Positions 5,928 through 23,064 of a stretch of DNA of 64,000 nt are shown in pieces (within the stretch, counting starts at the first letter, position 1; each line of letters starts with the position of its first letter). The stretch is from the NCBI RefSeq assembly GCF_002088975.1, contig NZ_NCST01000077.1, positions 1 through 64,000 on the forward strand, read 5' to 3'. The translations under genes and the position numbers were made by a program. Below the pieces are notes generated by a model. The model was not told the origin of the DNA. It saw only the letters and a program-made list of their open reading frames with translations, and did not search any database. The DNA is from Henriciella aquimarina (GTDB lineage Bacteria; Pseudomonadota; Alphaproteobacteria; Caulobacterales; Hyphomonadaceae).

Positions 5928-6004
5928 GGTTGGGTAGCTCAGCTGGTTAGAGCGCATGACTCATAATCATGAGGTCGGGAGTTCAAGTCTCCCTCCAACC
6001 ACCA
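5928..6004 (+). tRNA. tRNA-Met (anticodon CAT)
   Basis: The cloverleaf can be drawn by eye: acceptor GGTTGGG pairs with TCCAACC, a D arm with GCTC/GAGC, an anticodon stem CATGA/TCATG around the loop CTCATAA, a T stem GGGAG/CTCCC and an encoded CCA end. A CAT anticodon could also mean tRNA-Ile2 (lysidine-modified), but the acceptor looks like an elongator Met tRNA. The phage integrated here and its repeat restores the 3' half, so the gene stays intact. Confidence 0.93.
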
Positions 6005-15846: not shown

Positions 15847-16221
15847 TCAAACGCGCTTGAAGATGCCCTTCACCCGGCCCATCAGGGCCAGCGAGGCACG
15901 TTCCGTTGAGACGAACTGCTCGTCATAGTTCTTGTTGTCGCCGAAGATGCGGACCTGTCCGGGCATCAGCTGCACGCGGCAGACCTTCGCCACACCGGGC
16001 ACGAACTCGAAGACCGCAAGACCATCAGACAGGCTGTCATTGCAGGGATCGACCAGAACCATGTCACCGCTGCGAAGATACGGGAACATGAAGTCGCCCT
16101 GGACTTCCTCGACATAGCTGTCCTTGGACGGCTCTGACATTGCATTGTGCTTTGCGATGAGCGCCGAAACAGGATCGGACTCGACAAAGCGGCGGGGATT
16201 CTCAAAAGAAGGGTTAGCCAT
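15847..16221 (-). CDS. S24/LexA-type peptidase domain protein lacking an HTH
   Basis: 124 residues covering only the C-terminal beta-fold of LexA/CI repressors. SGDMVLVDP follows the usual catalytic serine box, although the usual GDSM is replaced by QGDFMFPYL; a catalytic lysine would lie in VCRVQL. There is no DNA-binding domain. It is divergent from a ribbon-helix-helix protein, which may supply DNA recognition. It could be an anti-repressor or decoy for the main CI. Confidence 0.65.
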   Translation of the reverse strand: MANPSFENPRRFVESDPVSALIAKHNAMSEPSKDSYVEEVQGDFMFPYLRSGDMVLVDPCNDSLSDGLAVFEFVPGVAKVCRVQLMPGQVRIFGDNKNYDEQFVSTERASLALMGRVKGIFKRV

Positions 16222-16294
16222 TGTGACCTCTAGGCAGGTTGCTTTGGTTAGAGCCGGGCAATGGACTGGTACTCCTTGCCCGGTTCGCAATTTT

Positions 16295-20940: not shown

Positions 20941-21006
20941 ACGAATACCTTTCCGCCCGTGGGCAGGTTTTTGTTTTGTTCATGGTGTCGATTGGGGTAA
21001 GGTAGC

Positions 21007-21042
21007 GAACCCGCCCCGGCGTTGGCGCGCCAAAGCGGGTTC
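21007..21042 (+). repeat. Hairpin leader of the first HNH gene
   Basis: GAACCCGC (21007-21014) pairs with GCGGGTTC (21035-21042). The interior contains GGCGTTGGCGCGCC (21018-21031). A second copy lies before the other HNH gene at 22425-22458 with the interior inverted. Both lie 28-30 bases before the ATG. Confidence 0.8.
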
Positions 21043-21070
21043 TGACCAATCAGCCTATGTGGAGGCTCTC

Positions 21071-21781
21071 ATGGCTACTTCCCGAATATGTTCTATCGAC
21101 GGCTGCGGCAAGCCGGTTAAGGCGCGTGGATGGTGCAAGGCCCATCATCTACGTTTTCTCCGGCATGGCTCCCCCACGGCTGGCGGCCCGATGCGAAATC
21201 ATAATCATGACGGCCAATGCAGCGTCCGCGACTGCCAGCGCCCGCATTTGGCCAAAGGGTTTTGTTCCTCACACTATGCCCGCGTACAGAGAAGCGGCTC
21301 TCCCTCGCCCCGGAGGCCCTTCAAGACAAACCAGAAAAAGCATCTGGCATTTTTGGGCCAAGCCCTCGACTCTGACACTGACGAGTGTATCGAGTGGCCA
21401 TTCAGGTTAACCAAGCAGGGGTACGCGCGAATATCACTGTTTGGAAAACCCGTTTTCGTTTCTCGGGCTGTCTGCGCACAAGCGCACGGAGCGCCACCAT
21501 CTCAAAACTGGCATGCCGCCCACTCCTGTGGAAATCCTTGCTGCATAAACCCCAAGCACTTGAGCTGGAAAACCGCAGCCGGGAACATGGCCGACAAAAT
21601 TGAGCATGGGACACATCAAATCGGTGAGGCCAATCCGCACGCCAAACTGACCGAAGACCAAGTGCTGGAAATGCGCCGACTTAGGCCCTCCCATTCCCTT
21701 TCTCAGCTTGCGGCAATATTCGATGTGACGCCAACAACCGTCAGCGGAATAGTCCGCCGCAAGAGTTGGACTCACATCTAA
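21071..21781 (+). CDS. HNH homing endonuclease (antisense to tail operon), copy 1
   Basis: 236 residues. Two N-terminal zinc-finger-like CxxC...CxxH units (CSIDGCGKPVKARGWCKAHH and CSVRDCQRPHLAKGFCSSHY) precede an HNH core: WHAAHSCGNPCCINPKHLSW. A C-terminal helix-turn-helix (LSQLAAIFDVTPTTVSGIVRR) follows. It is a free-standing homing endonuclease, not a structural gene. Strong Shine-Dalgarno GGAGG at 21061. The stop overlaps the antisense frameshift extension of the tail chaperone by a few bases. Confidence 0.9.
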   Translation: MATSRICSIDGCGKPVKARGWCKAHHLRFLRHGSPTAGGPMRNHNHDGQCSVRDCQRPHLAKGFCSSHYARVQRSGSPSPRRPFKTNQKKHLAFLGQALDSDTDECIEWPFRLTKQGYARISLFGKPVFVSRAVCAQAHGAPPSQNWHAAHSCGNPCCINPKHLSWKTAAGNMADKIEHGTHQIGEANPHAKLTEDQVLEMRRLRPSHSLSQLAAIFDVTPTTVSGIVRRKSWTHI

Positions 21782-22370
21782 ACCCTCACATCGGGCAGGT
21801 TCATTGCCCGGATGCGGTCGAGCGCAGCATCGAACTCTTCATCCGTCTGCGCTTCAGATCCTGAAGGCTTCATCAGCTTGTTGTGCTCGGCGATCATGCC
21901 TTGCCACTGCCAGAGCGTGAGGTCTTCGATGGCTTGCGGGCTGACGCCTTTTTCGAGGCCGACCGCGTAGCAGGCGGCGAGGTTGAGGTATCCGTCCCCG
22001 CCGCCTTCTGCTTTTTTGGGCTGTCCGCCTCCGGTGTCGTCTCAGCGACCTCGTAACCTTCGACGCAGGCGCCGAGGATGGCGAGGGCATGGGAGTGCCA
22101 TTCGGCGAGCGGCCACTGATCGCAATAGCGTTCGATCAGCTTGCGCGCCTCCTGGGCATCCATGCCGCCGCCGATGAGACCAAGCCTGACGGTCTCAATA
22201 AGGTCGTTACCCTTGTAGTCGCCGGTGAGGCAGACCCGTTTCCAGAGCGTACCGATTGGGGCTGAGCAGCGTTCTTCCAGCTCCGCGATCCGTTTGAGCG
22301 GGAGCCGGAAGAGATAGTCTGCGTCTGCGAACTCAAGCGTGACCTCGCAGCTTCGATATTTGGTGGACAA
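21778..22370 (-). CDS. Tail assembly chaperone, frameshifted long form
   Basis: The zero-frame protein (22370 to 21894, 158 residues) belongs to the gene-transfer-agent-like tail chaperone group. A -1 shift at AAAAAAG (22017-22011) joins residue 120 to a second frame of 77 residues that begins AEGGGDGYLNLAACYAVGLE and contains EDLTLWQWQGMIAEHNKL, ending in a stop at 21780-21778. This is the lambda G/GT arrangement: the long form binds tape measure and tube. The second frame ends exactly where HNH copy 1 ends on the other strand. Confidence 0.85.
22011..22020 (-). promoter_or_regulatory. Programmed -1 frameshift slippery site
   Basis: Read on the minus strand the bases are CCCAAAAAAG. In the zero frame this gives A_AAA_AAG, the strongest known bacterial -1 slippery heptamer, and also C_CCA_AAA. 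Both would shift into the open second frame of the tail chaperone. Confidence 0.82.
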
Positions 22371-22424
22371 AAAACGTCCTCCCTAGCCTGTATTTACGGG
22401 AGAAAAGACGTTAGAACAGAAAGC

Positions 22425-22458
22425 GAACCCGCCCGGCGCGCCAACGCCAAACGGGTTC
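22425..22458 (+). repeat. Hairpin leader of the second HNH gene
   Basis: GAACCCG (22425-22431) pairs with CGGGTTC (22452-22458). The interior GGCGCGCCAACGCC (22435-22448) is the exact reverse complement of the interior of the copy at 21018-21031, while the flanking CCC and AAA are unchanged. Confidence 0.8.
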
Positions 22459-22488
22459 TAACCAAGCCAACCTTTGAAGGAGGTCGAA

Positions 22489-23064
22489 ATGGCTACCCAA
22501 CGTCTATGTTCAGTTTCGGACTGCGGCAATACGCATTACTGTAGGGGCTTTTGCCGCGCCCATTATTCTCGCTTCAAGCGATACGGTGACCCGCTGGCCG
22601 GGCGAATACCCACTGGCTCGACCGTGGCGTGGCTGGAGCAGCACGCCGACCATGAAGGGGACGCCTGCCTGCCGTGGCCATTCGCGACCGCGAAGAACGG
22701 CTATGCGAAGATCAGGATCGACGGGACAGACACATGGGCGCATCGCGTCATGTGCAGAATGGCTCACGGCGAGCCGCCGACGCCAAGACATCACGCCGCT
22801 CATTCGTGCGGCAACGGCAATGAAGCCTGTTGCAACCCAAACCACCTGAGATGGGCGACCCCGAAGGAGAACTTTCGGGATATGCTGAAGCACGGGACGT
22901 ACCCGCGTGGCGAGAAATCCGGCAACTCCAAGCTGACCGAAGCCGATGTGCGCCGCATCCGGTCGTCTTCAAAATCCGGCGCAGCTTTGGCCCGAGAGCT
23001 TGGCGTCTCAAGGAAGCTCATAAGCCTCATTCGAAGACGCCAAGCATGGAAGCATGTCGCCTAG
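22489..23064 (+). CDS. HNH homing endonuclease (antisense to tail operon), copy 2
   Basis: 191 residues, homologous in layout to the gene at 21071 but with one N-terminal zinc-finger-like unit (CSVSDCGNTHYCRGFCRAHY). The HNH core reads HHAAHSCGNGNEACCNPNHL, and the C-terminal HTH reads GAALARELGVSRKLISLIRRR. Shine-Dalgarno AAGGAGG at 22477-22483. Its stop overlaps the stop of the antisense tail tube gene by four bases. Confidence 0.9.
   Translation: MATQRLCSVSDCGNTHYCRGFCRAHYSRFKRYGDPLAGRIPTGSTVAWLEQHADHEGDACLPWPFATAKNGYAKIRIDGTDTWAHRVMCRMAHGEPPTPRHHAAHSCGNGNEACCNPNHLRWATPKENFRDMLKHGTYPRGEKSGNSKLTEADVRRIRSSSKSGAALARELGVSRKLISLIRRRQAWKHVA

Follow-up and report, generated by a model that had tools for sequence, protein, structure and literature searches.

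A predicted SymR-like cis-antisense RNA opposite two HNH endonuclease genes with inverted hairpin loops in a Henriciella aquimarina prophage

Introduction

To our knowledge, little has been described of the way homing endonucleases are restrained to protect the genomes that carry them, beyond autorepression and the RNA hairpins of T4-type genes. Among phage genes of another kind, the antirepressor gene of phage P22 is overlain at its ribosome-binding site by Sar, a small cis-antisense RNA. Sar acts on one gene and is likened by description to the RNA considered here, one leader of which also precedes an antirepressor. Upstream of T4-type homing endonuclease genes (I-TevI, mobE, segB and seg43(25)), structured RNA limits translation; the hairpins sit upstream of or over the ribosome-binding site, which one of them leaves unhidden, and the portion of that account cited here presents them as cis-acting structures of the sense strand and describes neither an antisense RNA nor a shared family (PMC2988022).

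The closest described system is SymR, the antisense RNA of symE (Rfam RF01809; Kawano et al. 2007, PMC1891008). Like the RNA predicted here, it is a cis-antisense RNA of about 77 nt opposite the 5′ end of a gene and has two hairpins that succeed each other as they do here. The first is closed by the complement of the start codon and codon 2 paired with a conserved linker; the second reads GUG-UUGGCG-CAC in the Rfam consensus, with a loop also found in our window. Unlike SymR, the leaders are found in front of phage homing endonucleases and other mobile genes rather than the SymE toxin gene. The R1162-like plasmid antisense RNA (RF00043, about 75 nt) has a model whose mRNA strand shows the succession CUAACCA...GGAG...AUGGCU as the leaders do, the difference being that it is a plasmid regulator. 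PtaRNA1 (RF01811) and FinP (RF00107) are antisense-type RNAs of 72–76 nt with different targets.

In the present work, we analyze two HNH genes and their leaders in a window of 64,000 nt of Henriciella aquimarina (contig NZ_NCST01000077.1). We consider it very probable that a cis-antisense RNA of the SymR/R1162 type, about 78 nt long, overlaps the 5′ end of the HNH mRNAs and blocks translation of the endonucleases. The structure, the antisense promoter signal, the loop statistics and the family relationship that carry this reading are evident in the sequences themselves.

Two mobile HNH genes and their leaders

Both HNH_3 genes are borne by a prophage and lie antisense among its tail genes, which include a Phage_tail_2 tail tube gene, a Phage_TAC_11 gene and a tape measure gene.

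21071 to 21781, plus strand: HNH1, 236 aa, zinc-finger repeats and an HNH_3 homing-type endonuclease domain (PF13392, E=3e-6; phrog_59)
22489 to 23064, plus strand: HNH2, 191 aa, zinc finger, HNH_3 domain and C-terminal HTH-like region

The two proteins share 42% identity. A prophage of the same genus (G027) contains HNH1 with an identical hairpin and lacks HNH2, while two prophage copies in a further genome of the genus (G009) lack both genes at these sites and carry a third one, HNH3, which is located in the head region and accompanied by a hairpin with the loop CGCCAA. The genes thus combine an HNH_3 domain with presence or absence at intergenic sites of related phages, as free-standing HNH homing endonucleases do. 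The inserted unit extends over the leader to bases upstream of it, so that hairpin and HNH gene move together.

Several further observations concern this neighborhood. G009 is Henriciella mobilis M65, whose loci L026 and L027 are the two related-prophage copies, identical across the compared HNH3 region. The junctions of the HNH insertions can be read from the unoccupied sites of G009 and G027. Both HNH genes end nearly at the 3′ end of a convergent tail gene (23040–23064 and 21770–21785), so that the stop regions overlap. On the minus strand at 22005–22025, the tail gene that lies upstream of the tape measure contains an A-rich slippery-like stretch, CCCAAAAAAGC, in keeping with the frameshift that yields the G/GT tail assembly proteins; an ORF of 78 aa (21854–22090, minus strand) overlaps this stretch. 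A tRNA-Met gene lies at 5928–6004, near the left end of the window.

The leader of each HNH gene comprises a first hairpin (HP1), a linker and a second hairpin, and a third copy was found elsewhere in the window:

20976 to 21003, plus strand: candidate sense promoter of HNH1, TTGTTC-16-TAAGGT, read from the sequence and the family profile
21007 to 21042, plus strand: HP1 of the HNH1 leader, GAACCCGC CCC GGCGTTGGCGCGCC AAA GCGGGTTC, 42.2 bits with the R1 model; on the minus strand, 3′ hairpin of the predicted antisense RNA
21043 to 21076, plus strand: 3′ part of the HNH1 leader, with linker TGACCA, second hairpin AGCCT/AGGCT with the Shine-Dalgarno sequence, and ATGGCT
22425 to 22458, plus strand: HP1 of the HNH2 leader, GAACCCG CCC GGCGCGCCAACGCC AAA CGGGTTC, 69.9 bits with the R1 model
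22459 to 22494, plus strand: 3′ part of the HNH2 leader, with linker TAACCA, second hairpin ACCT/AGGT with the Shine-Dalgarno sequence, and ATGGCT
16219 to 16286, minus strand: third leader copy, loop GTACCAG, 36.2 bits with the R1 model, preceding an S24-peptidase-like gene
15847 to 16221, minus strand: the Peptidase_S24-like gene behind the third leader, 124 aa (PF00717, E=1e-8)

A preliminary description had reported that the two HP1 hairpins share stems and flanks, that their 14-bp interiors are exact reverse complements and that 28 and 30 bases separate them from the start codons (ATG at 21071 and 22489), all of which the sequence bears out; the stem of copy 1 is longer by one pair (C/G). 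The 14-mer itself forms a hairpin with the stem GGCG/CGCC and a 6-nt loop, and its inversion therefore alters only this loop, from TTGGCG to CGCCAA. These are the sense loops of the HNH1 and HNH2 leaders, respectively, which, as read from the sequence, form a swapped pair. The hairpin GAACCCG...CGGGTTC occurs at only two sites in the window (none in 100 shuffles) and at the same two genome-wide. A REP/BIME-like repeat was considered and rejected, the genome holding only two such hairpins and three leaders.

A family of homologous leaders

Protein-guided searches yielded 118 loci, and a covariance model with pattern scans extended the set to 173 distinct HP1 hairpins. In this way, some 170 different homologous leaders were gathered, chiefly from alphaproteobacterial phages and prophages; the loci share ancestry and their counts are not those of independent events. 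Their sequences vary on a common plan, in which a promoter-like box comes first, then HP1 and TAACCA, then a second hairpin bearing the Shine-Dalgarno sequence, and finally ATGGCT. HP1 consists of an outer stem, an internal loop, a 4-bp inner stem and a loop of 6–7 nt. Its stems covary, with 95% of outer and 92% of inner cells paired and both-side changes in every modelled pair, and the second hairpin is poorly registered in the family alignment (60% paired). The covariation score of the whole structure is 0.464 against 0.184 when shuffled, and collapses once slid.

The endonuclease genes behind the leaders are of the HNH, GIY-YIG, NUMOD3/4 and AP2 types; others encode an S24 peptidase, a BRO/KilAC antirepressor, integrases and a resolvase. 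A recognition hairpin specific to HNH proteins is ruled out because the leader also precedes such unrelated genes. Leaders L327–L335 precede numerous short proteins that lack annotation, in part outside the class, as well as two SymE genes, and the superfamily seems wider than phage endonucleases. A literature search for the UUGGCG motif gave no match, and among the papers retrieved on HNH leaders and on structured or antisense RNA with homing endonucleases no title or abstract opening describes this leader.

Origin of the two loop orientations

The preliminary description had interpreted the inverted interior as a possible flipping segment, to be abandoned if homologous leaders showed a single fixed orientation. 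Both orientations recur across the family. The reverse complement is also present in the set for 22 of 66 distinct loops, against none for simple reversal and none for the complement, and shuffles give 0.8 on average and 6 at most. After clustering of similar hairpins, 12 of 52 loops still have such a partner (0.4 by shuffling). The cores of two loci, L083 and L304, are nearly identical over about 19 bp but run in opposite orientations, the inversion reaching beyond the loop. A tendency of phages to avoid repeated loops was considered on a small sample, in which 23 within-locus pairs include 3 identical and 2 reverse-complementary ones (the latter being one prophage counted twice). An isosteric exchange of C.A for U.G wobbles in the loop is ruled out since the inner loop bases flip along with the wobble.

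A physical inversion, most simply by template switching during replication, is the likely origin of the flip. Loop inversion by this process has been described in RNA genes (PMC8794818). The same antisense RNA could also have acquired its two orientations independently, if selection for a U-turn on either strand mimicked sets of reverse-complementary loops. The YUNR motif is indeed enriched, being found in the loop of either strand in 122 of 160 cases against 52±6, and the window leaders are otherwise quite different, as are their proteins. Exact reverse-complementary pairs that survive clustering, the extended inverted core of L083 and L304 and the documented precedent of template switching argue against this account, to which we grant an appreciable but minority credence; this judgment concerns the origin of the flip only and overlaps with the antisense RNA explanation. 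A sense loop and its antisense loop are reverse complements by definition, so that inversion exchanges them and leaves the cognate fit unbroken, which would explain why both orientations persist.

Strand of the conserved RNA

One rival to an antisense RNA is a leader acting on the sense strand alone, in which HP1 would be a 5′-terminal stem-loop that stabilizes the mRNA or controls translation and the second hairpin would present or hide the Shine-Dalgarno sequence. The sense mRNA leader also folds, a sigma-70-like profile (TTG at -33, TAnAA at -10, C/G at the start) places the transcription start at the base of HP1, and hairpins upstream of or over the ribosome-binding site are known for T4-type endonuclease genes from the cited part of the account mentioned above (PMC2988022). 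Three facts misfit this rival: mismatches of the A.C type, the greater stability of HP1 on the opposite strand and bases shared by the first codons.

Among the non-Watson-Crick cells of HP1 on the sense strand, A.C outnumbers G.T by 37 to 4, and sense A.C mismatches correspond to G.U pairs on the antisense strand. HP1 is more stable as antisense in 149 of 173 hairpins (p~1e-22), a neutral loop giving the same direction, and stems alone favor the antisense strand by 121 to 25. In the window, the minimum free energies are -28.6 antisense versus -23.4 sense for HNH1 and -26.9 versus -18.7 for HNH2. From the linker to ATGGCT, the antisense hairpin is the more stable in 167 of 169 loci, and its closing stem AGCCA:UGGUU appears in 162 of 169 antisense folds and in no sense fold, both counts including loci selected by the ATGGCT pattern. 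Read on this strand, 21043–21076 forms a single hairpin whose closing stem consists of the complements of ATGGCT and the linker, and 22459–22494 a hairpin closed by AGCCA:UGGUU. Two loci with ATGACT carry the matching linker TAATCA.

Past HP1, the antisense strand is rich in T (mean of 4.5 in 9 nt, part of which is the sense -10 box). On the minus strand, HP1 of HNH2 scores as a terminator with 15 pairs and the tail GCTTTCTGTT; the scan detected no terminator at HP1 of HNH1, whose U-tract GCTACCTTACC is poor.

The first codons of unrelated proteins have ATTCTA-like bases in common at +13 to +18, which on the opposite strand read as a -10 box lying 17 nt from a -35 box. The start would then fall opposite the T of ATGGCT. 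The score of the antisense sigma-70 promoter peaks at a single position of the ORF, at 3.53 against 0.67±0.22 for synonymous recoding, and among unrelated proteins at 2.75 against -0.02±0.28; the matrix is an approximation, with which the recoded controls were scored as well. Among loci not chosen by their start-codon pattern, 68 of 70 retain the predicted start base T5; where codon 2 encodes alanine, all 64 are GCT, compared with 22% elsewhere. For the window, the promoter and start were inferred from these family statistics and give the following features:

21083 to 21111, minus strand: predicted antisense promoter of HNH1, -10 TATTCG (21083–21088), 17-nt spacer, -35 TTGCCG (21106–21111)
20998 to 21076, minus strand: predicted antisense RNA of HNH1, about 78 nt, beginning opposite the T of ATGGCT and stopping a little beyond HP1
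22501 to 22529, minus strand: predicted antisense promoter of HNH2, -10 TAGACG (22501–22506), 17-nt spacer, -35 TTGCCG (22524–22529)
22416 to 22494, minus strand: predicted antisense RNA of HNH2, about 78 nt

The -10 boxes of the window copies are weak and a simple promoter scanner detected no antisense promoter there, whereas the family-wide signal is strong. A further point against an antisense RNA is that the tail operon of this prophage also runs in the antisense direction, so that the hairpins would lie in late mRNA.

Conservation therefore tracks the antisense strand, and the promoter signal exceeds coding needs. The A.C versus G.U count, the strand energies and this promoter signal lead us to reject a sense-strand riboregulator as the main function, and we regard a purely sense-strand leader as improbable. 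Much less probable still is an element acting as DNA, either a cruciform or a recognition or insertion site for the HNH protein or for a recombinase that flips the core. The flipped cores, including that of L083 and L304, and the joint travel of hairpin and HNH cassette would suit such an element; strand-specific wobble pairs are needless for a DNA cruciform, and GIY-YIG, AP2, S24, antirepressor, resolvase, integrase and SymE genes are preceded by the leader as well. What stands of the preliminary description is a real element that accompanies HNH genes in both loop orientations, and what is less well supported is its reading as an invertible or HNH-recognized piece of DNA. That two GC-rich hairpins, present in two copies, resemble each other by chance has next to no probability given the shuffles and is refuted by well over a hundred homologues from other phages with the same architecture, covarying stems and both orientations.

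Relationship to known antisense RNAs

The architecture of two hairpins in about 77 nt opposite a gene start is common to SymR and the predicted leader RNA, and the SymR model aligns over its full length (1–77). Such full-length matches were obtained on the antisense strand of several relatives (38–55 bits, E down to 4e-8). The best of them, at 55.4 bits (L331), then 50.0 (L335, a SymE locus) and 45.2 (L188), stay below the SymR gathering score of 61 bits, and the window leaders gave no SymR match and reached the gathering score of no Rfam family. Conversely, a model trained on phage leaders and run over the phylum retrieved two SymE toxin loci, L334 and L335; these alone have symE as target, the genes behind the window leaders being of the HNH_3 and S24 types. 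Leaders L180, L184 and L188, in small genomes before unknown proteins, are the nearest to SymR among class-level matches (38–45 bits).

The R1162-like model scores 17.6 bits for HNH2 and up to 37.1 in relatives, under its gathering score of 55 bits, and PtaRNA1 and FinP give weak full-length matches of 21–35 bits to the antisense strand or the leader, also below cut-off. Because all scores lie beneath the curated cut-offs, we claim no membership: the leader RNA probably works like SymR and is probably related to it.

Proposed mechanism

For the antisense RNA, we infer transcription, kissing and repression along the following lines. Each HNH gene would form a mobile cassette together with a promoter and a cis-antisense RNA gene of its own. 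The mRNA would start at the base of HP1 and the antisense RNA opposite the conserved T of ATGGCT, from a promoter within the first 14 codons or so. The first antisense hairpin, in which AGCCA pairs with the complement of the TAACCA linker, would carry an anti-Shine-Dalgarno sequence; the second would be the complement of HP1, where transcription would end. The HP1 loops of the mRNA and the antisense RNA, of which one usually has a YUNR U-turn, may kiss and thereby nucleate pairing that spreads over the Shine-Dalgarno sequence and the start codon and blocks endonuclease translation. Inversion of the loop would swap which strand carries which loop while the cognate pair still fits, and the antisense RNA of a non-inverted paralogue should lose its kissing with the inverted mRNA.

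Biological implications

We tentatively suggest, as a possibility short of an even chance, that a SymR-like superfamily serves as a general brake on homing endonucleases and mobile genes in proteobacterial phages, and that inversion of the loop by template switching creates a new specificity in one step, making paralogous cassettes of the same phage independent of each other. If so, the antisense RNA brake would be a control module common to several unrelated endonuclease families and would link selfish genes of phages to the SymE/SymR toxin system. Such a brake would account for silence in the lysogen and for a burst upon entry into a naive cell. The loop-inversion signature would in addition offer a natural data set of antisense specificities, each of which may stem from a single mutational event.
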